A DNA stretch of 61,528 nucleotides. Source: Cytophagales bacterium. Lineage in GTDB: Bacteria > Bacteroidota > Bacteroidia > Cytophagales > VRUD01. The DNA is taken from NCBI GenBank assembly GCA_019456305.1, contig VRUD01000015.1, forward strand, positions 1-61,528, read 5' to 3'. Shown here one piece after another: positions 2,554 through 61,528 of this stretch; position 1 is the stretch's first letter, and each line of letters begins with the position of its first letter. The position numbers and the translations under genes were made by a program. The notes below the pieces were generated by a model. The model saw nothing but the letters and a program-made list of their open reading frames with translations, made no database searches and had not been told where the DNA came from.

Positions 2554-2776
2554 CCAGCTTTCGTTAGTGGTAGTTCTTTTTCCCGTACTGTTTCAGCCGC
2601 AAAGTTTAATGCTTCTGCAATGTCCCCTTTTTCAAGGTCGGGATAGTACTCAGTATTTTTTCAGTGGTCATTCCTTGCGCAATCATAGTAATAATTGTCG
2701 CAACCGGTATCCTAAAGTTTCGAATACAGGGTTCCCCGTTCATTTGGTTCGGGTCTATTATTATTCTGTCAAACAT
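2550..2776 (-). pseudogene. Frameshifted DUF433 antitoxin
   Basis: The minus strand starts MFDRIIIDPNQMNGEPCIRN and continues RIPVATIITMIAQGMTTEKI, a clear DUF433 (VapB-like) antitoxin N-terminus. Near 2644-2652 one base appears to be missing, because the family's YYPDLEKGDIAEALNFAAE continuation is found in another frame and ends in LTKAG followed by TGA. Restoring one base gives about 75 residues, a normal length. With the truncated DUF5615 partner the module looks dead. Confidence 0.78.
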
Positions 2777-2973
2777 TTTTGTATTTTTTTGGTCTGCAAG
2801 TTAAGAATTTTTCATCAATCTCTACACACGATAATTTTTGCTGGCTATTTCCCATAACGGTAAGTATAAAGTTAGTAGGGAGTTTTGAAAACGTATGTTT
2901 CTCCCCACTGCAAAGATAAGAAATGGGCACAACTGCCCCTGCGTACTCGTCTGCCCTATTAAATTTATACAAT

Positions 2974-3285
2974 GTTGTAAGTAGTGGCGGGCTAACTCTA
3001 CTGTCTGTTTTACCTGAATTTATTACTCTCTACGGAGCGGAATGTAGATTTAGTTTTTGCGGGAAGGGGAAGCGACCGGAATTTCTCTTTGCGGAAGGGC
3101 TTGCATTTGCTTTTGGCATTTTGGGCTGGGCGGTGGCATTGAGCGAATGCCAAATGTATATGCAAGCGAAGCATGGGCTGGTACTCTGATGACCCTTTTA
3201 CTTAATCTATCGGGTCTCGTTGTGGTGCAATAGGGTCGCAATGCTCTGCAGTCGGGGTTATATGGCAATCTGCGGCAATGTGAAT
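2974..3285 (+). other. Possible non-coding dispersed element, copy A
   Basis: This stretch is richer in GC than its surroundings and carries no convincing gene. It begins GTTGTAAGTAGTGGCGGGC, and a near-identical sequence occurs in reverse orientation ending at 6471. Inside is an imperfect hairpin with 20-nt arms at 3101-3120 and 3146-3165 around a GC-rich 25-nt loop. It ends around a GGTTATATGGCAATCTGCGG motif weakly resembling the far end of copy B. The boundaries are estimates. Confidence 0.45.
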
Positions 3286-3363
3286 TTAATCTTTTTCCTA
3301 TTCAGTTATATTTTGAACCAAGGGGTAATAATTTACGTATACATTTGCTGAAAATACCTCTAG

Positions 3364-3540
3364 GCAGTAGGCTTTATCAATCAAGAAGGGGATATAGTAA
3401 TCCCTGTGGAATATGATGATGCCTTTTGGTTTCATAACGGAATAGCAAAGATAAGAAAGGGAGAAAAAGGGTTTTATATGGATAAAAATGGGAAATGGGT
3501 AAAAGACGAGAAAAAAAGAAAAAAAGATGAATACAGATAA
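3364..3540 (+). pseudogene. WG-repeat protein, C-terminal fragment
   Basis: The + frame reads GFINQEGDIVIPVEYDDAFW, then FHNGIAKIRKGEKGFYMDKN and GKWVKDE, which is one WG (KWG) repeat with its signature 'GFIN..G..VIP..YD.A..F.NG.A.'. There is no start codon, a TAG precedes the fragment, and it ends in a lysine-rich tail at TAA 3538. WG proteins normally have many such repeats, so this is a remnant of a larger gene cut off on the 5' side next to the possible element copy A. Its last bases overlap the start of the kelch gene in another frame. Confidence 0.7.
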
Positions 3541-6025
3541 GCATAAACGATTTGTTAAGCTGGCAATTTCAGTATTCCTAACTAGCATAATTGATCCTGT
3601 AGATTTCTGTAAAGCCCAACTAGGAGAATGGACTTGGATGCATGGAGACAGCACTCTTAACCAAGCCGGTGTATATGGCACCAAGGGTGTATCCAGCCCT
3701 TCTAATAAACCTGGTGCTCGTTACGGACCTTCTGCATGGACAGATCCCTCAGGCAATTTCTGGCTCTTTGGGGGTGTTATAAATGGACCAGATCCATTAA
3801 ATGACCTTTGGAAATACGATATTACCACCAATGAATGGACCTGGATGGATGGGGATAACATTTCTGCACAACCCGGTATATATGGCACTCAAGGTATTCC
3901 TTCTTCAACTAATAAGCCGGGGGCAAGAGGGTGGGGATGTTTAACATGGGTGGATTTAATAGGTAATCTTTGGTTATTTGGGGGGTACGGTTATGATGCA
4001 GTAGGAACATTAGGTTCCCTAGGTGATCTTTGGAAATTCAATCCTTCAACTAATGAATGGACCTGGATGAAAGGACCCCAACTTGCTTCCCAGCCGGGCA
4101 ACTACGGTACCCAGGGAATTCCCTCCACAACAAATACCCCCCCTGCACGAAGTGAAACTACAGCTTCGTGGGTAGATGATTTAGGTAACCTATGGCTTTT
4201 TGGGGGATATGTCTCTGGTACTGGTTATTTTAGCGATCTATGGAAATATAATCCATTAACTAATGAATGAGCTTGGATGAGCGGATATAGTATTGTTGAT
4301 CAGCCGGGTGTTTATGGCATTCAAGGTGTTCCCTCTCCTGCTAATAAACCTGGTGCAAGAATGGTTTTTGCACATTGGAAAGATCTTTCCGGCAATTTTT
4401 GGCTTTTTGGAGGGGGTGGATATGATGAATTTGGAGCTATAGGTGGCCTCAACGATCTTTGGAAGTATGATCTTACTTCAAATGTATGGACATGGATAAA
4501 TGGAAATAATTTTGTTAGCGGGTCGGGTATTTATGGTGCAAAATGCGTTGCATCAGTCTCCAATATTCCGAGAGTAAGAAATGAAACCCGAGCTTGTTGG
4601 ACAGATGCCTGTGGGAATTTTTGGCTTTTTGGTGGATTTAGATTTGTTGGGATCAATTATAATGATCTATGGCATTATAATCATTTAACCAACGAATGGT
4701 TGTGGGTAAGTGGCGATAGCATATACAATCAACCTGGCGTTTATGGTACTCAAGGGGCTTCAAGTCCTTCCAATAAACCTGGAGCCAGAAGTGGAACAGT
4801 AAGCTGGATGGATAATTCTGGGAATCTATGGTTATTTGGTGGGTATGGTTCCCCTAATTTCTACAATGACTTATGGAAATACGTTCCCGATCCGAATTGT
4901 GCCGGTGCATCGCCGTTAGTTGCAGCAGCCAGCCCCGACACCAGTATTTGTTTAGGAGATAGTGTCCAGCTTAACGCAAGTGGAGGTATTAATTACAACT
5001 GGAACCCTTCAACAGGATTAAGTGATTCAACGGTTTCTAATCCTTTAGCAAGTCCAGACACTACTACTACTTATTTTGTTACAGTTTCAACTGATATCTG
5101 CTCCGCAATGGATTCTATTACTATTAATGTCTATTCGGATCCCATAATTAGCATTTCAGGAGATACCGGCATCTGTGAAGGAGACAACACGACCTTAACG
5201 GCAAGTGGAGGCACTGCTTATCTTTGGAATACCGGGGATACAACAGCTTCTATAACAGTTAATCCAACTGATACAACAAACTATAAGGTAACTGTTTTCA
5301 ACGGGTCCTGTTTTGCAACAGATTCTATTATGGTGGCCGTTCAAACATCGTCGCTAAACATTGTAAATATTGAAATTTGCACCGGAGACAGTACATTTGC
5401 TGGTGGCAGCTACCAAACTACATCAGGAACCTATTTTGACACATTAAATGTTTCGGGTGAATGCGATAGTGTTTTGATCACTCAGCTAAACGTAAATTCA
5501 CTGCCGCAAGTTGATGCGGGAACAAATATTACTATTAATGCTGATTCATGTGTTGCATTAAGTGCTTCTGCAGGTGTAATTTATATTTGGACTCCCCCAA
5601 TAGGCCTTAGTTGTACAGATTGTCAGAATCCTCTTGGATGTCCGGGTCAAACCACTACCTATTATCTGACAATTATTGACGCTAACGGATGCATTGGTAA
5701 TGATGATGTTACAATAACTGTTACTCCCAAGCAGGTTATTCCCTGCAGTGAGAAAATCTTTGTTCCTGATATTTTTTCACCAAACCATGATGGTCAAAAC
5801 GATGTTTTACAAGTTATAGGAAAGGGCTTCAACGTAGTTATATTTATGATCTATAATCGATGGGGCGAACGAGTTTTTATAACAGAAAATAAAAGTTATG
5901 GATGGGATGGAACTTATAAAGGAGAAATGATGAGCCCTGCAGTATTTGTTTATTATTTGGAAGTAACCTGTACTGATACGGGTGAAAAATTTACTACGAA
6001 AGGAGATATTACATTGGTCCGATAA
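3527..6025 (+). pseudogene. Kelch-propeller T9SS type B surface protein with in-frame TGA
   Basis: One frame runs for 833 codons but is broken by TGA at 4268-4270. At that point neighbouring repeats encode NEWTWM with TGG, so a single G-to-A change turned Trp into stop. Upstream are a signal-like N-terminus (residues 10-30) and kelch/galactose-oxidase repeats (LWLFGGY...NDLWKY). Downstream are more kelch repeats, two or three Ig-like/PKD-like domains (about residues 465-730) and a gliding-motility-associated T9SS type B C-terminal domain (FSPNHDGQND, YNRWGERVF, WDGTYKG). The intact product would be secreted through the T9SS. It could be a real nonsense allele, a sequence error or, least likely, a readthrough. 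Confidence 0.8.
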
Positions 6026-6149
6026 TTCTAAAAAGTTGTTGAGAAAAAGTAAAATTGTTAATGATTGGCAAAGCAAGCTCTCGCAGCACATAAGAATTGA
6101 ATCTCAAATGTTTCTGAGAAAACATTAATTGAATGATTTGAGGAATATT

Positions 6150-6471
6150 ATTGCAGCAGTGTGCTTATGTGCGGCATGTGCTTGCGTGTGGAGGCTATTC
6201 CGTAAGGCGCGGGGGCAAAAAAACTAAATCGGGAAGTATCCACATCGTTGTCTACGAAGCGAAGAAGTCCTACCGTAGTCCTGTTCTGCCTTTCAGGGAG
6301 TTACGGTCTTGTCAATCGCTACTGAACTTTCAGGGTGCTGGTCAACCGTTTTATTAAAGTCCTTGTAACCTTACTTACTTTTCAGGCTGTTACCTACTTT
6401 TCCAGTCGTACTGAATTGTCCGTCTGGTTTTTATTTTACTACAAAACTTTCTGCCCGCCATTACTTACAAC
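6150..6471 (-). other. Possible non-coding dispersed element, copy B
   Basis: The 640-bp gap 6026-6665 holds no convincing gene. Read on the minus strand from 6471, it starts GTTGTAAGTAATGGCGGGC, matching the start of copy A at 18 of 19 positions. It also shares a GATTTAGTTTTT segment followed by G/C-rich sequence, and a weaker end motif near 6150-6170. Four degenerate CTTTTCAGG/CTTTCAGGG words occur at 6280-6405. The two copies face each other across the kelch gene and WG fragment. The remaining AT-rich part, 6480-6665, looks like a promoter region for the next operon. Confidence 0.4.
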
Positions 6472-6665
6472 TACCATATAGGCACAGGTTTGTTGTCGTT
6501 ATCTTGAAAAATTTGCAAGATTGAAACATTTTTTATGTTTTTATTTTCTACAGCCAAATATATTACATTTTTATAATGTTTGTTAATTAAATTAAATATT
6601 CATAACTTGTATTTTTTTGAATAAACTTTATTAATTTTGATACTTTTAATTACTCCCAAATCTAC

Positions 6666-7199
6666 ATGGAAGAAACTTTAACATACCAAAAAATTTATAC
6701 CTTTGAGGATTTGAGTTGTTTACCAGACGAAAATTATGAGATCATTAATGGAAAAAGAGTAGATATTTCACCAACAGGATTTATACATGGAAAATTTGAA
6801 TTTAACATTGCCCAGGTCTTAAAAGATCGTCTGGAGAATAAAGGATATGTTGCGGTTGGGGAAATTGGCATTGTTATTCGTAAAAAACCTTTTAGACTCA
6901 GAGCTGCTGATGTGGTATATATTAGTAAAAAAACTTCGCCACAGGAACCCGAAGGGATACTTCAAATAGCTCCTGATCTCATCATTGAGATCCTGTCTAA
7001 AGATGATACAACTGAGAAAATGAACAATAAAATCAAGGATTACCTTTCAATAGGCGTAGAAAGCATTGTAGTTGTTGACCCTGCTGCTGAATCGATATCA
7101 ATATACCATCAAAAGAAAAAAGAAATAGAATCCTACAGTTTTGATGAAGAATTTGAACTTTACCAGGGAATAAAAATTATTATGAATCAAATTTTATAA
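6666..7199 (+). CDS. Uma2 family endonuclease (DUF820)
   Basis: The product is 177 residues and has the Uma2 PD-(D/E)XK-like restriction-endonuclease fold. It shows the YEIINGKRV opening, a conserved Asp in RAADVVYIS, and PDLIIEILSKDDTTEKMNNK, where the Glu and the following Lys/Asn helix are family hallmarks. Such proteins are abundant in Cyanobacteria and some Bacteroidota, and their cellular role is unknown. Its stop is 2 bp before the M36 peptidase gene, so the two are probably cotranscribed without obvious functional logic. A possible promoter with TAATTTTG lies at 6632-6639. Confidence 0.85.
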   Translation: MEETLTYQKIYTFEDLSCLPDENYEIINGKRVDISPTGFIHGKFEFNIAQVLKDRLENKGYVAVGEIGIVIRKKPFRLRAADVVYISKKTSPQEPEGILQIAPDLIIEILSKDDTTEKMNNKIKDYLSIGVESIVVVDPAAESISIYHQKKKEIESYSFDEEFELYQGIKIIMNQIL

Positions 7200-23634: not shown

Positions 23635-23700
23635 GTGTTTACGTGTTCACGTTTTCTTATGTTTAAGAGCATAGACTTGAAAACGTGAACACATAAACAC
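23635..23700. promoter_or_regulatory. 22-bp inverted repeat between sigma and anti-sigma genes
   Basis: Arms 23635-23656 and 23679-23700 are complementary at 21 of 22 positions, around a 22-nt loop. The stem has no U-run, so it is not a classical terminator. It could attenuate or stabilise the message between the two genes and so set the sigma to anti-sigma ratio, or it could be another dispersed palindrome. Confidence 0.7.
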
Positions 23701-29100: not shown

Positions 29101-29236
29101 TGCCAATAATACTATCTTCTAACAGAGGTGGCTGGGTAATCGTAAAAATCTCAATTATCTGTGCGGAACACGGATTATTACACAGATTACACAGATTTAA
29201 AAAGATTACACAGATTAAGAGTATTGTTTTTTTCAT
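26168..29236 (-). CDS. SprB-repeat T9SS type A surface protein
   Basis: The 1022-residue cell-surface protein has a signal peptide (1-25; ...NNPCSAQ), about ten SprB-like repeats of roughly 70 residues (pattern ISCxGxxDGxAxVxVSGGTxPYTYxWS...LxAGxYxVxVTDxNGC) to about residue 700, fibronectin-like segments (700-930) and a C-terminal type A sorting domain (LKVYPNPYTSQTEVTYFL, ...LLKQLLEY). SprB repeats are known from the Flavobacterium gliding adhesin. ACTGCC hexanucleotide runs near 27903-27926 and 28067-28088 give TATATAT stretches that may vary in length. It is convergent with the isoaspartyl peptidase gene. Confidence 0.92.
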   Translation of the reverse strand: MKKTILLICVIFLNLCNLCNNPCSAQIIEIFTITQPPLLEDSIIGTNISCFGGSNGTAQVMPSGGTSPYTYGWSGGATPLLATNFNLPADTHTVTVTDSNGCTVTDSIILTEPALLTTTISSTQDSGICNGTATANPSGGASPYNFWWNGSSGNQTETGLCTDSTLILMVWDNNSCTAYDTVTISLISLPLTITVTGTDVTCYGGSDGAADLTVTGGVAPYFYLWSNDSTIQDLTGIPAGTYIISVTDSDTLPATVYDAITIVEPPALTISILGIDATCNGCNDGSANLSVSGGSPPYSYLWSTGDTTQDIAFSLLAGTYTVTVTDSNSCIAIDNVTISEPSPVSITVTITDISCNGVCEGAATVTPSGGTAPYNFFWSTGQTDTATVTATATSLCAGNYSIIITDAVANTVSGTITISEPDTITITITTTTAICGTATATATATVSGGTPPYNYVWSSGDTTETDSSLAAGLHFITVTDTNGCIAYGTATVSDVGAPVISDSITDVTCNGAADGAISISATGDTTDGNSYVWSNGSASQILTNLIGGIYEVTVTGNLSGCVSTASFTIFEPDPITLTVNTVDASCGNADGIASVNVTGGTGTYTYFWSTGGTNSFETGLAAGVYAVNVMDANGCMSISPVIINNLGGPVITMNLQTNTSCGSPSGGAIDINVTGGALPYTYLWSNGLTTQDINNLTDTSYNVIITDSNGCIGSESFSISQKLPLSQAICIVTVDSATGKNLIVWEKNPDPSFYNIYKEGSAANVYFLLASVPYDSVSTFLDILADPKQRSWRYKITAVDSCGNESALSQLHKTMHLTMNLGLGGVINLIWDHYEGFNFGTYYIYRGTLASPSLDSIYAIASNNHSWTDLNPPVTPELFYQVAAVHPTECSPTFLTLGALGTPDQKKVLVYNSARSNVSNRLIPTGINLQSSPAFGGIQLKVYPNPYTSQTEVTYFLNEKANVSLEVYNILGKKIEMLVDEEQISGKYRYSFSAKDLGYSSGVYILKLIVGDRVLLKQLLEY
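26425..26559. repeat. Two palindromes inside the SprB-repeat gene
   Basis: TCCCGCC-AAA-GGCGGGA (26425-26441) encodes SPAFGG just before the sorting domain. A 29-nt palindrome (26531-26559; 13-bp arms CGTTCCTAACGCT and complement, CCG centre) encodes TFLTLGALGT. Both are in frame in linker regions between domains. Confidence 0.85.
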
Positions 29237-29272
29237 TTTTAAAATGTTTTAAACAATGATTTAGAATATTCA

Positions 29273-29362
29273 GGGCATCTCTAAAAACTACATATTTTTT
29301 AAAACACACCCCTTGCCCCTCTTGATAGAGGGGAATGTATGGTGTAGTTTTTAGAGATGCCC
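29273..29362 (+). mobile_element. 90-bp MITE, copy 1
   Basis: The ends GGGCATCTCTAAAAACTACA and its near-perfect complement form about 20-bp terminal inverted repeats. The interior is a CCCCTCTTGATAGAGGGG hairpin and an A/T run. Flanking TTCA on both sides (29269-29272 and 29363-29366) is a 4-bp target duplication. The copy at 56841-56930, in reverse orientation, matches at 89 of 90 bases. It carries no gene, so it must use a transposase in trans; none with such ends is in the window. The right-hand TTCA supplies the stop codon of the neighbouring gene. Confidence 0.92.
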
Positions 29363-29363
29363 T

Positions 29364-29684
29364 TCAGCGATTTATGCCCAATACCTCTACAGTAGAACAA
29401 AAGCTTATAATTCTTCTCTGCAATGCATTGTACTTTGAATGTGCATCTTCCTTGTTTTTCTCTAAAAGCCTGTATAATTTCATATTATATGAAACGTTAG
29501 GATCATCTTCCGATTTTCCCGGAATTCCAATACCATTAAATTTAAGTCTTGATGAATACATTAGTACTAAAAGAGCCTCTACTGTATCGTATCTTTCTTC
29601 TGACAAATCCCTTAGGCCCACTGAAACCAATTCCCATCCCGGGAGTTTTTCGTATTTCCTTATTTTTCTATTTTGTAACTTCAT
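29364..29684 (-). CDS. Hypothetical protein downstream of DUF6036 gene
   Basis: From ATG 29684 (MKLQNRKIRKYEKLPGWELV) the frame gives 106 residues, mostly helical and charged, with no signal or TM. I do not recognise the family. The TGA stop lies in the MITE target duplication, so the natural C-terminus may have been cut by that insertion. It follows the DUF6036 nucleotidyltransferase gene on the same strand, separated by a REP-like hairpin pair. Confidence 0.55.
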   Translation of the reverse strand: MKLQNRKIRKYEKLPGWELVSVGLRDLSEERYDTVEALLVLMYSSRLKFNGIGIPGKSEDDPNVSYNMKLYRLLEKNKEDAHSKYNALQRRIISFCSTVEVLGINR

Positions 29685-30354: not shown

Positions 30355-31107
30355 TCATGGTTTTATATTTCCAGGTACGTTGAGACGCCCAAATTGGGCG
30401 CCTTTACGTTCCGGATTTTTTGGGTTTTTATCGTCCGTATCCCAGTTTGCCGGATTGTTTTTTATGTATTGTCTTATTCTGTTTAATTCCCGTGAATTCC
30501 TTATGACATGATCGTTAAACAGGCGCTGCCATTGAAAATCCGGTGTCATTTTGCGGATATTAACCGTGACGGCAGATTTAATTCCGCCCATGATTGACGA
30601 AAGATTATTCCGTTGCGGTCCGAATTTGTTTTTGTACGTACGGCTGAACCCCTGTCGTATGTATTGTTCCGGTGGTAACAGGTACGGTTGCGATGGGGAT
30701 GGGGATTGTAGAGACACGGTGCACCGTGTCTCTACAATTTCACCATCCCTACCAATTGAATCACCCCTACCAATTGCACCATCAATGCCATTGGGATCGG
30801 ATTTGTTATTACCAGGATTATCAATTCGATGGATAATGACAATGATCCCGTGAAAATGATTTGGCATGATCTGAAATGCATCCAATTGGATGTTTTTTCT
30901 GATTTCAGGGGTCTTAAACCATTCGGTTTTTACCATTTCGCCTGCATTGGACAATATCATTTTTCCATTTTCTATTCTACCCAGAACACATTCACGGTTT
31001 TGCACACAACCTGTTACAAAATAAAATCCGGGGTTTGCATAATCCCACCCTTTTAAACGTGTGGATTCAATTCGGTATTTGTCTTTGAATTTTTCCATTA
31101 TCGCCAT
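30355..31107 (-). CDS. REP-associated tyrosine transposase (RAYT)
   Basis: This is a Y1/HUH single-strand transposase related to IS200/IS605 TnpA. The start at MAIMEKFKDKYRIESTRLKG gives 250 residues; two other Met codons are close. Motifs are GFYFVTGCVQNRECVLG, HUH-type MPNHFHGIIVI, and the terminal RQYIKNNPANW with the likely catalytic Tyr. RAYTs are single-copy domesticated transposases that spread REP hairpins. An insert after MPNHFHG (about residues 95-150, Ser/Pro/Gly-rich) includes a perfect REP-like palindrome read in frame. A REP-like pair lies 0.6 kb downstream. Confidence 0.9.
   Translation of the reverse strand: MAIMEKFKDKYRIESTRLKGWDYANPGFYFVTGCVQNRECVLGRIENGKMILSNAGEMVKTEWFKTPEIRKNIQLDAFQIMPNHFHGIIVIIHRIDNPGNNKSDPNGIDGAIGRGDSIGRDGEIVETRCTVSLQSPSPSQPYLLPPEQYIRQGFSRTYKNKFGPQRNNLSSIMGGIKSAVTVNIRKMTPDFQWQRLFNDHVIRNSRELNRIRQYIKNNPANWDTDDKNPKNPERKGAQFGRLNVPGNIKP
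30708..30735. repeat. REP-like palindrome inside the RAYT gene
   Basis: A perfect palindrome, GTAGAGACACGG...CCGTGTCTCTAC, extends to 34 bp (30705-30738) with flanking ATT/AAT. It is translated in frame on the minus strand (IVETRCTVSLQS) within a low-complexity insert between the HUH motif and the C-terminal part. A close relative with the same GTAGAGAC ends is at 60463-60490. Confidence 0.9.
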
Positions 31108-39250: not shown

Positions 39251-40273
39251 CTATTTGACAGATAGCGTTATATACACTGCGAAATGGTCGCTGTAGCCGC
39301 CTAAATATTTTTGGCCTGCGAATGTTCTGAGTGGGTAACCTTCATAAAATTCACTATTATGTTGTTTCAACCATTCCGGTGCAAAGATCGTGGCTGAATT
39401 TATTTTATAATGTATGTTTTTATTGTTTACCAAAGGAGTGGAAAGAATAATTTGGTCTAACATACTCCAATCGCCTCTATAACAATAACTTCCCTGGTTT
39501 TCTTTCTCTAATGAATACCATGGATTATACAATTCTCCTGTTTTTAAGTTTGAAAAACCTTCCTTTGCTTTTAATACTTTATAAATACTCTTATTGGAAG
39601 GTTCGTCATTAAAATCTCCCATAATTATAATTTTACTGTTATTATTTATTCCAAATATCAAATTAACCACATCTCGCACCTTTGACGCTACATATTCTCT
39701 TTTATATTCTGCTTTTACTCCACCCGAACGTGATGGCCAATGATTCAAAATAAAAATAATAGTATCCGTTTCAGCTAATACTCCTATTACCAATAAGAAA
39801 TCCCTGGTTTTATAATCAGGTTCATTGTGGAAATCAATTGTATAAGTTTTATAGGTTATTGGTTTGTAAATATCTTCTTTATAAACAAAAGCAACATCAA
39901 TTCCCCGCTTATCGGGTGAATCCTGGTGAATAATTGAATAATTATATTGCTGTAATTTCTTTGTATTGAATAAGTCCTCCACTACTTTGAGGTTTTCTAC
40001 TTCAGAGAGACCGATAATTTCAGGACCATCCCCATCACCTAACTGTGAGATAACTTCTGAAAGTTTATTGAGCTTATCGTTGTATTTTTTTAAATCCCAT
40101 TGTTTTTTACCCGAGGGCAGGAATTCATCGTCTCCCCATTGTAGCGAATCATCGAAAGTATCAAATAAATTTTCAACATTGTACGATGCAATAGTGTAAT
40201 TTTGTGCTGTAGTATTTTGCCTGCATGAGCAGGTAATTATTACAAAACTGAAAAGGATAATTTTATTTAGCAT
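39251..40273 (-). CDS. Secreted endonuclease/exonuclease/phosphatase family protein, copy 1
   Basis: The 340-residue protein has a lipoprotein-like or Sec signal (MLNKIILFSFVIITCSCRQN) and an EEP (DNase I-like) fold: ASYNVENLFDTFDD, IIGLSEVENLKVVEDL with the metal-binding Glu, HQDSPDKRGIDVAFVYK, ILNHWPSRSGG, MGDFNDEPSN and GGYSDHFAVYI with the catalytic Asp-His. It probably hydrolyses extracellular or periplasmic nucleic acid or phosphoesters. The next gene upstream is a duplicate offset by 1029 bp. Confidence 0.9.
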   Translation of the reverse strand: MLNKIILFSFVIITCSCRQNTTAQNYTIASYNVENLFDTFDDSLQWGDDEFLPSGKKQWDLKKYNDKLNKLSEVISQLGDGDGPEIIGLSEVENLKVVEDLFNTKKLQQYNYSIIHQDSPDKRGIDVAFVYKEDIYKPITYKTYTIDFHNEPDYKTRDFLLVIGVLAETDTIIFILNHWPSRSGGVKAEYKREYVASKVRDVVNLIFGINNNSKIIIMGDFNDEPSNKSIYKVLKAKEGFSNLKTGELYNPWYSLEKENQGSYCYRGDWSMLDQIILSTPLVNNKNIHYKINSATIFAPEWLKQHNSEFYEGYPLRTFAGQKYLGGYSDHFAVYITLSVK

Positions 40274-40282
40274 TGTCTATAT

Positions 40283-41443
40283 TTATTTTGATAGTATAAT
40301 ATACACCGGGAAATGATCGCTATAACCGCTTAAATATTTTTTGCCCCAAAATGTTCCGAGCGGGTAACCATCATAATATTGACTGTTATGTTGTTTTAAC
40401 CATTCCGGTGCAAAGATCGTGGCTGAATTTATTTTATAATGTATGTTTTTATTGTTTACCAAAGCAGTGGAAATAATAATTTGGTCTAACATATTCCAAT
40501 CGCCTCTATAACAATAACTTCCCTGGTTTTCTTTCTCTAATGAATACCATGGATTATACAATTCTCCTGTTTTTAAGTTTGAAAAACCTTCCTTTGCTTT
40601 TAATACTTTATAAATACTCTTATTGGAAGGTTCGTCATTAAAATCTCCCATAATTATAATTTTACTGTTATTATTTATTCCAAATATCAAATTAACCACA
40701 TCTCGCACCTTTGACGCTACATATTCTCTTTTATATTCTGCTTTTACTCCACCCGAACGTGATGGCCAATGATTCAAAATAAAAATAATAGTATCCGTTT
40801 CAGCTAATACTCCTATTACCAATAAGAAATCCCTGGTTTTATAATCAGGTTCATTGTGGAAATCAATTGTATAAGTTTTATAGGTTATTGGTTTGTAAAT
40901 ATCTTCTTTATAAACAAAAGCAACATCAATTCCCCGCTTATCGGGTGAATCCTGGTGAATAATTGAATAATTATATTGCTGTAATTTCTTTGTATTGAAT
41001 AAGTCCTCCACTACTTTGAGGTTTTCTACTTCAGAGAGACCGATAATTTCAGGACCATCCTCATCACCCAACTGTGATATCACTTCTGAAAGTTTTTCAA
41101 GCTTATCGTTGTATTTTTTTAAATTCCATTGCCTTTTGCTTAAAGGCAGAAATTCGTCATCTCCCCATTGTAGCGGATCATCGAAAGTATCAAATAAATT
41201 TTCAACATTGTATGATGCAATAGTGTAATTTTGTGCTGTAGTATTTTGCCTGGATGAGCAGGTAATTATTACAAAACTGAAAAAGATAAATAGATGGAAA
41301 ATGGAAGGTGGAAGGTGGAAGATGGAAGATGTTTGATGGAAGATGGAAGATGTCACCCCTAACGGGTGCCCACCCGGAAGGGTGGGAAGATGTAGATTTC
41401 CCTCTATTTCCTTATTACCTTTTTCCCTTTTTCCCTTTTTCAT
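40283..41443 (-). CDS. Endonuclease/exonuclease/phosphatase family protein, copy 2
   Basis: This paralogue of copy 1 has the same motifs (SEVENLK, NHWPSRSGG, MGDFNDEPSN, GYSDHFPVYI). A central 566-bp block (39466-40031 versus 40495-41060) is identical between the two genes, while both ends differ. The N-terminus is abnormal: ATG 41443 gives MKKGKREKGNKEIEGNLHLP and SSIFH repeats encoded by simple-sequence DNA before the old signal region IFFSFVIITCSSRQ. The signal peptide is therefore probably compromised, so the gene may be a nonsecreted or decaying copy. Confidence 0.85.
   Translation of the reverse strand: MKKGKREKGNKEIEGNLHLPTLPGGHPLGVTSSIFHQTSSIFHLPPSIFHLFIFFSFVIITCSSRQNTTAQNYTIASYNVENLFDTFDDPLQWGDDEFLPLSKRQWNLKKYNDKLEKLSEVISQLGDEDGPEIIGLSEVENLKVVEDLFNTKKLQQYNYSIIHQDSPDKRGIDVAFVYKEDIYKPITYKTYTIDFHNEPDYKTRDFLLVIGVLAETDTIIFILNHWPSRSGGVKAEYKREYVASKVRDVVNLIFGINNNSKIIIMGDFNDEPSNKSIYKVLKAKEGFSNLKTGELYNPWYSLEKENQGSYCYRGDWNMLDQIIISTALVNNKNIHYKINSATIFAPEWLKQHNSQYYDGYPLGTFWGKKYLSGYSDHFPVYIILSK
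41291..41395. repeat. GGAAGATG simple repeat with double hairpin at a gene 5' end
   Basis: On the + strand, GGAAGATGGAAGATG-type units are repeated about eight times, followed by two hairpins, CACCC-CTAAC-GGGTG (41354-41368) and CCCACCC-GGAA-GGGTGGG (41369-41386). All are read in frame on the minus strand as the abnormal N-terminus of copy 2. Copy 1 lacks them, so they were inserted or expanded after duplication. Confidence 0.85.
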
Positions 41444-41498
41444 AATATAATTTCTTAGTGTATCTTTGTGCCTTTGTGGCAATATTTTTTACAAATAT

Positions 41499-56830: not shown

Positions 56831-56840
56831 AATGATATAA

Positions 56841-56930
56841 GGGCATCTCTAAAAACTACACCATACATTCCCCTCTATCAAGAGGGGCAAGGGGTGTGTT
56901 TTAAAAAATATGTAGTTTTTAGAGACGCCC
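56841..56930 (-). mobile_element. 90-bp MITE, copy 2
   Basis: The reverse complement of this element matches copy 1 (29273-29362) at 89 of 90 positions; the only difference is the fifth base of one end. ATAA on both sides (56837-56840 and 56931-56934) is a 4-bp target duplication, differing from TTCA at copy 1, which shows independent insertions. It lies between wza and the TA pair and its hairpin interior could end transcription. Confidence 0.92.
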
Positions 56931-56990
56931 ATAATATTGAAAATAAACAAATTTACAAATATTTTATATAAATAAAAAACTCTCTTAATC

Positions 56991-57761
56991 TTAGAAAGGT
57001 CTAAAAAGATTTAATATAAGCACCAAAGTGGTTATCCCCGATAAAATCAGCGAAGCCGTTGGCACGCTCAATCTTGCTTGTTTCGTTCTCAAGGGCTCTA
57101 CATAAATCACATCACCCGGTAATAAAAAATAAAGATTCGACCTGATCATCTCCGAGTCTGTCAGATCAATATTAAACAACATTGCCCCCTGCGCAGTCTG
57201 CCTGATCAGCATCACATTGGTTCTGTTGCCAAAATCTGTTATATCTCCTGCCAAACCAAGCGCTTCAAGGATAGTAACTCCATCATTATATATGTTATAC
57301 ATCCCCGGTTTTTTCACCTCACCCAACACAGTGAGCTTAAAGTTTACTAATTTTACAATTACAGTAGCTTTACTCAAATGTTCGTCAACTTTGGCCTGTA
57401 TCAATGATGCAGCTTCTTCTATACTGTAGTCTATAACCTTGAGCGGTCCTATTATCGGCAGATAAATGTATCCTGAATCATTCACTGAATAGCCATTCAG
57501 GTATAATGCTGCCGGATTATACTGGTTAAAGGCAGTATTTGATTCAATATTAAAAAAACTGGTAGTGTTTGGGTCTAAACCTAAAATTTTAACGGATAAA
57601 ACGTCATTAGGTTGGATCTTATAGAGGTACTTTTTATGAGCAATAAGCTCACCGGGTTTGATCCTATGGCTTTTATTTTGAAGATAAACTAACTTTTTAT
57701 TTGAAGTGCACGCTGATAATAAAATAAATAAAACAGTGATATTTACAAACCATTTAATCAT
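56991..57761 (-). CDS. wza: Polysaccharide export lipoprotein (Wza/OPX)
   Basis: The 256-residue outer-membrane export protein has lipobox LLSAC (C18), a Poly_export domain (about 45-140; YKIQPNDVLSVKILG, GYIYLPIIGPLKVIDYSIEE), an SLBB domain (about 145-225; VLGEVKKPGMYNIYNDGVTI, LEALGLAGDITDFGNRTNVM) and a C-terminal helix (ASLILSGITTLVLILNLFRP). This short OPX form is common in Bacteroidota. It works with Wzc. It is the first gene of the minus-strand polysaccharide series; TAAATTTG at 57813-57820 may be its -7 box. Confidence 0.94.
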   Translation of the reverse strand: MIKWFVNITVLFILLSACTSNKKLVYLQNKSHRIKPGELIAHKKYLYKIQPNDVLSVKILGLDPNTTSFFNIESNTAFNQYNPAALYLNGYSVNDSGYIYLPIIGPLKVIDYSIEEAASLIQAKVDEHLSKATVIVKLVNFKLTVLGEVKKPGMYNIYNDGVTILEALGLAGDITDFGNRTNVMLIRQTAQGAMLFNIDLTDSEMIRSNLYFLLPGDVIYVEPLRTKQARLSVPTASLILSGITTLVLILNLFRPF

Positions 57762-60284: not shown

Positions 60285-61528
60285 GTGGATTCAATAAAAA
60301 AAGCTATAAATCTTTTTCGTAATATGGGTGCGAGATACATTGTGTTTCGCACTTTTTATGAAATAAGAAAAAAAACAGGCCTGCTAAAAAGGAAATATCC
60401 TGTCTCATACAAAATACAACGGTTCATTTCACTCACAAACTGGAAAAGAAACCTGGAGCAATGTAGAGACGTTGCATACAACGTCTCTACATTGCCGGCA
60501 AATTTCTTTTTCAACTCCCGGGATGATCTATCAGGATATTCCCTTGACCAGAAAGAAATAGCTGATCTAAAATCAGAATTTCAGCATATAAAAGAAGGAA
60601 AGATCAAATTTTTTGATGCTTTTCATGTGGATTTAGCAAATTATGATTGGGTCACAAATCCTGACAGTGGTTATAAATATGTAGTGCACCAACACTGGAC
60701 AAAGATCAATGAGTTTGTCCCTGAAAATGGCGATATAAAATATGTTTGGGAAAAATCACGCTTTTGCTACCTTAACACCATTATCCGTTATGATCGCCAT
60801 TGCAAAGATGATCAGGCAAAATTTGTTTTTGAAGAAATTTTATCATGGATTGAAGCTAATCCTCTTAACTGCGGCCCTAATTATACATCAAGCCAGGAGA
60901 TTGCGATACGGGTATTGAACTGGATCTTTGCGCTTTATTATTACAAACATTCAGCGTTTTTAACCAATGAAATATTTCAAAAAGTAATAAACTCAATCTA
61001 CTGGCAAACCAGGCATGTCGAAAAAAATATTAATTTTTCCAGGATTGCCGTAAGAAACAATCACACTATTACAGAAAGCCTGCTTTTATATGTAGTTGGA
61101 TTACTCTTTCCTTTTCTCCCCAACAGTCAAAAATTTAAGAAAAAAGGCAAACGATACCTTGAGGAAGAAGGTTGCCAAATCTATCAAGACGGTTCTTACC
61201 TGCAATTTTCATTTAACTACCATAGGGTGGTCATACAACTTTACACATGGGCATTCTATCTTGCCCGTGCCAACAATGAAAAGTTCTCTGACCAGCTTCA
61301 CGATCGTCTTAAAAAATCCCTTGACCTGCTCTGCCAGCATCAGGACACTATAACAGGTATGCTCCCTAATTATGGTGCAAACGATGGCTCGTTATTTTTC
61401 AAATTGAACAGTTGCGATTACCGGGACTTCAGGCCTCAATTAAATGCTTTACATTATTACTTCACAGGAAGCATGTTGTATTCTCCCGGATTATGGGACG
61501 AAGACATTTTTTGGTATACCCAGCCCCC
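60285..61528 (+). CDS. Heparinase II/III-like polysaccharide lyase, partial
   Basis: The frame opens at GTG 60285 (or ATG 60324, MGARYIVFRTFYEIRKKTGL) and runs off the window after about 414 codons. The N-terminal alginate-lyase-like helical domain is visible (YEIRKKTGLLKRKYP; FNSRDDL; WEKSRFCYLNTIIRYDRHCK, NYTSSQEIAIRVLNWIFALY, RNNHTITESLLLYVVGLLFP). The Heparinase II/III beta domain would lie outside. No signal peptide, although relatives in polysaccharide loci are cytoplasmic or periplasmic. A REP-like palindrome is read in frame at 60463-60490. Confidence 0.85.
   Translation, partial: MDSIKKAINLFRNMGARYIVFRTFYEIRKKTGLLKRKYPVSYKIQRFISLTNWKRNLEQCRDVAYNVSTLPANFFFNSRDDLSGYSLDQKEIADLKSEFQHIKEGKIKFFDAFHVDLANYDWVTNPDSGYKYVVHQHWTKINEFVPENGDIKYVWEKSRFCYLNTIIRYDRHCKDDQAKFVFEEILSWIEANPLNCGPNYTSSQEIAIRVLNWIFALYYYKHSAFLTNEIFQKVINSIYWQTRHVEKNINFSRIAVRNNHTITESLLLYVVGLLFPFLPNSQKFKKKGKRYLEEEGCQIYQDGSYLQFSFNYHRVVIQLYTWAFYLARANNEKFSDQLHDRLKKSLDLLCQHQDTITGMLPNYGANDGSLFFKLNSCDYRDFRPQLNALHYYFTGSMLYSPGLWDEDIFWYTQP
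60463..60490. repeat. REP-like palindrome inside the heparinase-like gene
   Basis: GTAGAGACGTTG-CATA-CAACGTCTCTAC has a 12-bp perfect stem (15 bp with flanks, 60460-60493) and the same GTAGAGAC ends as the copy within the RAYT gene. It is translated in frame as CRDVAYNVSTL just after a conserved-looking N-terminal segment. Confidence 0.9.

Follow-up and report, generated by a model that had tools for sequence, protein, structure and literature searches.

In a 61,528-nucleotide stretch of DNA from a Cytophagales bacterium (the window), two facing copies of a 19-mer very probably mark the relic of an integron-like array on the minus strand, which comprises an attI-like site (6572-6471), a complete cassette (6470-2858) with an attC-like site (2987-2855), and the start of a further cassette in which a DUF433 gene is broken. 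The 19-mer, GTTGTAAGTARTGGCGGGC, lies at 2974-2992 on the plus strand (copy A) and at 6453-6471 on the minus strand (copy B), and no match was obtained in 100 shuffles, confirming the inverted pair to which a preliminary description of this DNA had drawn attention. After the initial G, 17 of 18 bases are equal, and then the agreement ends without a convincing alignment of the two regions beyond the 19-mer. Therefore, the mobile non-coding element in two copies that had been proposed for the pair was ruled out, and the copies appear instead to be the start (B, from 6470) and the attC-side tail (A) of one integron-like cassette. The sole difference between them is at position 10, where B (reading TTGTAAGTAATGGCGGGC) has an adenine and A (read outwards, TTGTAAGTAGTGGCGGGC) has a guanine, and this difference identifies B as the start and A as the tail. 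The repeats are inverted round the cassette because, within a cassette, the start pairs with the sequence flanking the attC site. A further copy of GTTGTAAGTARTGGCGGGC with up to 2 mismatches was not found in the 4.245-Mb genome of the window, and a 15-mer search with 1 mismatch gave one extra place, in contig C2. The features assigned, in which a slash marks the junction, are as follows.

2609-2776, minus strand: first part of a broken DUF433 gene (Pfam PF04255, 57.6 bits), with an ATG at 2776 and in-frame stops
From 2857, minus strand: putative start of the next cassette, TTATGGGAAATAGCC, opened by core CCGTTA (2860-2855); position 10 is A
2855-2860, minus strand: putative R' core CCGTTA, from its position in model R2, with the side taken from the orientation of arrays to the recombinase
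2855-2987, minus strand: attC-like folded site of the cassette (R2, 68.4 bits, E 4.3e-17; arms pairing at 15 of 20 positions)
2974-2992, minus strand: copy A, tail flank and R'' (AAC) with G at position 10, from the 19-mer and the start/tail comparison
6470 to 2858, minus strand: putative cassette of 3,613 bp, with 17 of 18 bases shared by start and tail and the one mismatch at position 10, as in array cassettes
3099-3167, no strand given: hairpin of the preliminary description, within the cassette near its attC end, with relatives on C109 and C21
3527-6025, plus strand: kelch gene with a CHU_C type IX secretion domain (open reading frames; Pfam Kelch_4, CHU_C)
6453-6471, minus strand: copy B, the putative start, with the G/TT junction and the first 18 cassette bases, A at position 10
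6469-6572, minus strand: block ending in the attI-like TGTGCCTATATGGTAG/TT, with a second copy at C35:3173-3276
6666-7199, plus strand: Uma2 gene (Pfam PF05685, 87.8 bits), outside the cassette and upstream of the attI-like block

For the hairpin that had been seen in copy A, at about 3099-3167, relatives are present on C109 and C21 in the window's genome, and such own-genome relatives led to the site family. The structure that matters at A lies mostly to the left of 2974, at 2855-2987. BLAST in a sample of the window's own genome (834,510 bases including the window) identified eight sites; each has two arms that pair across a loop of about 70 nt, the second arm lying immediately before GTT. 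These sites align with a 20-pair stem, 10 pairs of which are changed on both sides; none of 500 shuffles reaches any of five measures of covariation, and slid controls are far lower. A model built from the eight sites (R1) was positive in 69 of the order's 148 genomes, with 21 sites in the window's genome; over 42 stretches from elsewhere, totalling 772,928 bases, it gave 175 matches with E no greater than 0.01. The best 150 of these matches, lying in 36 stretches, were used for a second model (R2), which contains no site from the window's genome and which, across the phylum, matched sites in 154 of 296 genomes. Both models were written on the plus strand. As R1 missed two sites at locus L090 that are visible by eye, the site counts are lower bounds. 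The covariation score of the 150 foreign sites is 0.794, compared with 0.196 after shuffling and at most 0.113 in slid controls, in an alignment that was fitted to the structure. In 24 of the 36 stretches, at least two sites are present (138 in all), always on one strand, several of the stretches being neighbours in one array. Insert columns within the modelled stems are filled in at most 17 of the 150 sites, indicating that there is no conserved extrahelical base, with the limit that the sites were picked by a bulge-free model in which bulged ones may be under-represented; some sites of locus L129 fold with bulges. The site at A thus has relatives across the order and a strongly covarying stem, and the 19-mer itself stands without another copy.

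At A, the R2 score given above is followed by a runner-up of 18.2 bits elsewhere in the window. The arm at 2864-2883 pairs with the arm ending before 2974, and 6 of 2,000 shuffled arms are as good; folding energy alone is weak evidence for the site (z -1.76, 10 of 200 shuffles as good). The imperfect palindrome AAC...GTT is present at 2855-2987, and the full words RYYYAAC and GTTRRRY are absent from A. The crossover is supposed to lie between G2858 and T2857. That side was placed at 2858 because of the orientation of arrays to the recombinase, and the word at A was ruled out as the crossover side on the same ground. An Rfam search of the window at gathering scores gave no matches, and the window contains no tRNA.

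Regarding the relation between start and tail, investigations on the arrays revealed that the first 13 or so nucleotides of a cassette are the reverse complement of its own attC flank, except at position 10. At least 6 of 8 positions match in 48 of the 79 neighbouring pairs compared, against a permuted mean of 6.3 and a maximum of 14 in 2,000 permutations. The match rate is 0.01 at position 10 and 0.65 and 0.76 at the neighbouring positions. Counted over all usable sites, position 10 of the start is A in 115 of 117 distinct cases, and, at this position, the 82 tails comprise 66 with G, 9 with T, 5 with C and 2 with A; as the tail flank lies in the models, G at the tail is possibly favoured by site choice, and the start past its first base lies outside them. 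All 30 distinct well-matched pairs differ at this position (27 A/G and 3 A/T). The pairing itself would follow from integron logic, in which the start completes R' in the free circle, and the fixed position-10 mismatch seems characteristic of the present system, as seen in the arrays examined here. A start matching the first attC was found within 260 nt behind the recombinase or single-stranded DNA-binding protein (SSB) gene in 10 of 17 readable loci and was further off or not found in the others. The nine sites with a readable tail in the window's genome were compared with possible starts within 12 kb: the window's start agrees at 10 of 10 test positions, those at C22 and C21a agree at 9 of 10 (at 1,274 and 3,997 nt, both with A at position 10), and the remaining six sites have no start above 7 of 10.

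The window cassette is large relative to the array cassettes, whose median is 1,319 bp and maximum 4,496 bp. Its kelch gene, broken by an in-frame TGA at 4268-4270 (a pseudogene or a sequencing error), runs antisense to the cassette, an arrangement present in 4 of the 74 array cassettes whose ORF has at least 60 aa, and it may have entered by another route. The two repeats had also been described as GC-rich islands in AT-rich DNA. GC fractions of 0.46-0.47 at 2901-3300 and 0.45 at 6101-6400 agree with this, but the kelch gene between them also reaches 0.40-0.475, and the stretches that are clearly AT-rich lie at 6401-6800 (0.19-0.28) and at about 3301-3600 (0.33-0.35). In the next cassette, the ATG of the DUF433 gene lies 81 nt past the core. 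As a separate observation, a second hairpin family adjoins several attC-like sites (3099-3167 in the window; L055:1250-1340; L054:10583-10657; L044:15818-15898; L056:10154-10234), with a conserved TCTTTTG...CAAATGT and, as judged by eye, stems with compensating changes.

At the other end of the cassette, B was rejected as an attC site because it lacks a pairing arm (shuffled arms are as good in 1,487 of 2,000 cases) and has no model match nearby, and as a second cassette tail on the start/tail comparison at position 10. The block upstream of B is 98% identical over 104 bp to C35:3173-3276, and the identity has its edge exactly at GTT, after which the C35 copy continues with a different sequence than at B. 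This edge suggests site-specific recombination rather than decay. An attI matrix was made from twelve ends picked by eye from related loci, which have TGCG-N-N-TATA-like words in common before AG/TT; left-out ends score 5.9 to 20.2. The end of B's block scores 10.3, and 12 of 28,038 GTT places in the own-genome sample are as good, the C35 twin included. It is a candidate attI relic, less certain than the site at A, and in the window this motif stands without a recombinase. The C35 twin (L050) lies upstream of a gene resembling DNA polymerase I by eye, and a cassette-like start, TTACAGGCAAGCG, then follows; no matching tail for this cassette was found in its 20-kb stretch.

In the window's genome, C6 carries a 165-residue fragment of a tyrosine recombinase, which ends in SPLDNI and lies about 1.1 kb from an attC-like site, and an intact recombinase was not found at E 1e-40. 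Intact relatives are present at L090 and L091, from metagenome assemblies labelled Bacteroidetes bacterium and Chitinophaga pinensis; these two records, together with the CHU_C domain in the window, suggest that the genomes compared are Bacteroidota. Their nearest NCBIfam model is NF040815 (XerA / integron integrase), at 202 and 207 bits against a cut-off of 220, followed by TIGR02249, XerC and XerD, all under their cut-offs. Among the order's 148 genomes, 57 have relatives at E 1e-40, a set that may include recombinases with other tasks, and many of these recombinases have repeat arrays as neighbours. Both recombinase and sites were found in 41 genomes, the recombinase only in 16, sites only in 28 (without a recombinase at the limit used) and neither in 63 (p 9e-7). 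Examination of 27 distinct recombinase loci (L090, L091, L122-L141, L172, L179, L183, L184 and L186) revealed R1 sites in 22, and R' points away from the recombinase in all 22; the sites lie behind the recombinase gene in 21 of them and in front of it in the remaining one, in G103. The loci without R1 sites are L090, where two are visible by eye, and L124, L130, L131 and L137, where the contig or stretch ends within about 2 kb on the site side. In 12 of these 27 loci, L129 and L141 included, the recombinase has an SSB gene as its direct neighbour, two of which Pfam confirms, and SSB is a plausible partner for folded single-stranded sites.

The distance from the K to the LRH box is 63-68 residues in 32 of 32 recombinases of the order, compared with 105 in 12 of 12 canonical IntI of the phylum and 71 in the XerD of the window. 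The IntI insert of about 40 residues (the I2 / patch III region) is absent from all 32 recombinases compared, and where IntI4 of 2a3v has about 64 residues, about 22 are present. These short recombinases have extra N-terminal residues, about 85 in L091; a structure prediction of the L091 recombinase was set aside as a poor model (mean pLDDT 45.6). Phylogenetic analysis gave a tree with long branches in which the short recombinases group with IntI, separate from two Xer sequences, and are not one demonstrated clade.

Comparison of sequences thus establishes a site family with a covarying stem, arrays in one orientation beside a recombinase, a start/tail rule with a fixed mismatch, and a putative attI-like motif, and the system is common in the order. 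In the mechanism proposed, a tyrosine recombinase, whose gene adjoins one for SSB in some loci, would move circular cassettes. Within the circle, the cassette start would complete the R' side of attC, so that start and R'' flank pair, and in the integrated form this pairing would appear as an inverted repeat round the cassette. The short recombinase would presumably do the work, acting on a folded single strand with a crossover at G/TT. Several observations count against the array-relic explanation, namely the lack of an intact recombinase in the window's own genome, the antisense kelch gene, the large cassette, a start within 12 kb for only 3 of 9 own tails, the tail-less C35 cassette, the 28 sites-only genomes, the R1 miss at L090, and the R2 sites linked to IntI.

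These last sites bear on an alternative, judged unlikely, in which a canonical IntI located elsewhere would move the cassettes in trans, and the short recombinase adjoining the arrays would have some other function. Canonical IntI above cut-off is absent from the window's genome and from all 148 genomes of the order, yet 69 of these have sites; in the phylum, it is found in 84 of 296 genomes, some of which also have R2 sites. R2-like sites lie within 20 kb of canonical IntI at 4 of 11 loci looked at, one of them strong: G152 has four R2 sites of 36.8-73.8 bits with R' towards IntI, and those of G418, G399 and G211 are weaker (21.9-30.1 bits). In addition, G261 and G205 have strong sites and no relative of the short recombinase within the 20 kb taken. 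The site type is therefore not confined to the short recombinase. Activity of IntI in trans is further disfavoured by the occurrence of sites and short recombinase together in constant orientation in 22 of 27 loci, and by stems without conserved extrahelical bases, which IntI uses according to PMC3053210.

The same lack of extrahelical bases would suit the host XerC and XerD, which might act on the folded sites as they do for phage CTX, whose site is similar in this respect according to PMC4792948, with the short recombinase as a passenger. An XerD gene is present in the window and an XerC-like gene in C41, but a dedicated recombinase adjoins the arrays with an attI-like motif close behind, and this explanation has only a slim chance of being correct. 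A composite transposon carrying the kelch gene, with the 19-mers as its terminal inverted repeats, is scarcely credible, as the inverted 19-mer round a gene is limited to the pair itself in the genome, the attC-like fold goes on outside A and a different block lies outside B, and the single mismatch obeys the start/tail rule; of the composite unit that had been proposed, two ends of a kelch-holding unit and a mobile-DNA system remain.

The array relic resembles integrons in its cassette arrays with uniform sites beside a tyrosine recombinase, in the folded site between AAC and GTT, in the candidate attI-like motif, in the pairing of the cassette start with its own R'' flank (in arrays, and at 17 of 18 positions in the window pair), and in a recombinase that ends in SPLD, as IntI4 does in part. 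It differs from integrons in a recombinase without the IntI-specific insert (32 of 32) and with extra N-terminal residues, in stems without conserved extrahelical bases, in the fixed mismatch at position 10, which was counted in these arrays alone, and in the SSB gene beside the recombinase in 12 of 27 loci. As in CALIN or single attC sites, the site stands without an intact recombinase in its own genome; however, the window has one attC-like site, fewer than the two that define CALIN in PMC9024848, and it belongs to the family found here. CTX phage integration by XerCD also combines a folded stem without extrahelical bases and recombinases without the I2 domain, as described in PMC4792948, whereas here a dedicated recombinase, cassette arrays and an attI-like motif are present, and no phage as far as seen.

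According to the IntegronFinder 2.0 report, an extra domain tells IntI apart from other integrases, and the complete integron that the program itself found within Bacteroidetes is that of Salinibacter ruber (PMC9024848). Bacteroidota are listed among integron-bearing phyla in reviews (PMC8618304, PMC9668308). The extra domain has been called necessary or essential (PMC9668308; PMC8138268), is stated not to be fully conserved in its subgroup (PMC8138268), and has been linked to extrahelical bases (PMC4792948; PMC3053210). A paper on integrase evolution describes the origin of the I2 domain as a chicken-and-egg paradox (PMC4792948). In open-licence PubMed Central, preprints excluded, no account of a system such as the present one was found. 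The chances are about even that these arrays represent a second kind of integron, with a recombinase without I2, folded attC sites without extrahelical bases, an SSB of its own helping in some loci, and a choice of strand perhaps made via the position-10 mismatch. If true, this would be either the step so far missing on the path from Xer recombinases to integrons or a case in which cassette capture arose independently. With a recombinase that lacks I2 adjoining sites that lack conserved bulges, the question of how I2 originated becomes directly testable. If the arrays work, a large pool of cassettes without canonical IntI has been overlooked, and in the window a puzzling repeat would become the trace of a captured cassette.

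The window contains further repeats. An inverted, MITE-like pair at 29212-29364 and 56839-56991 is 85% identical over 156 bp, with ends GGGCATCTCTAAAAACTACA and TGTAGTTTTTAGAGATGCCC. A tandem duplication of about 1 kb with 95% identity, at 39261-40260 and 40290-41289, spans the ORFs at 39251-40273 and 40283-41482. Long near-perfect palindromes are present at 30696-30749, 60441-60513 and 23635-23700, two of which have GTAGAGACG-like arms.
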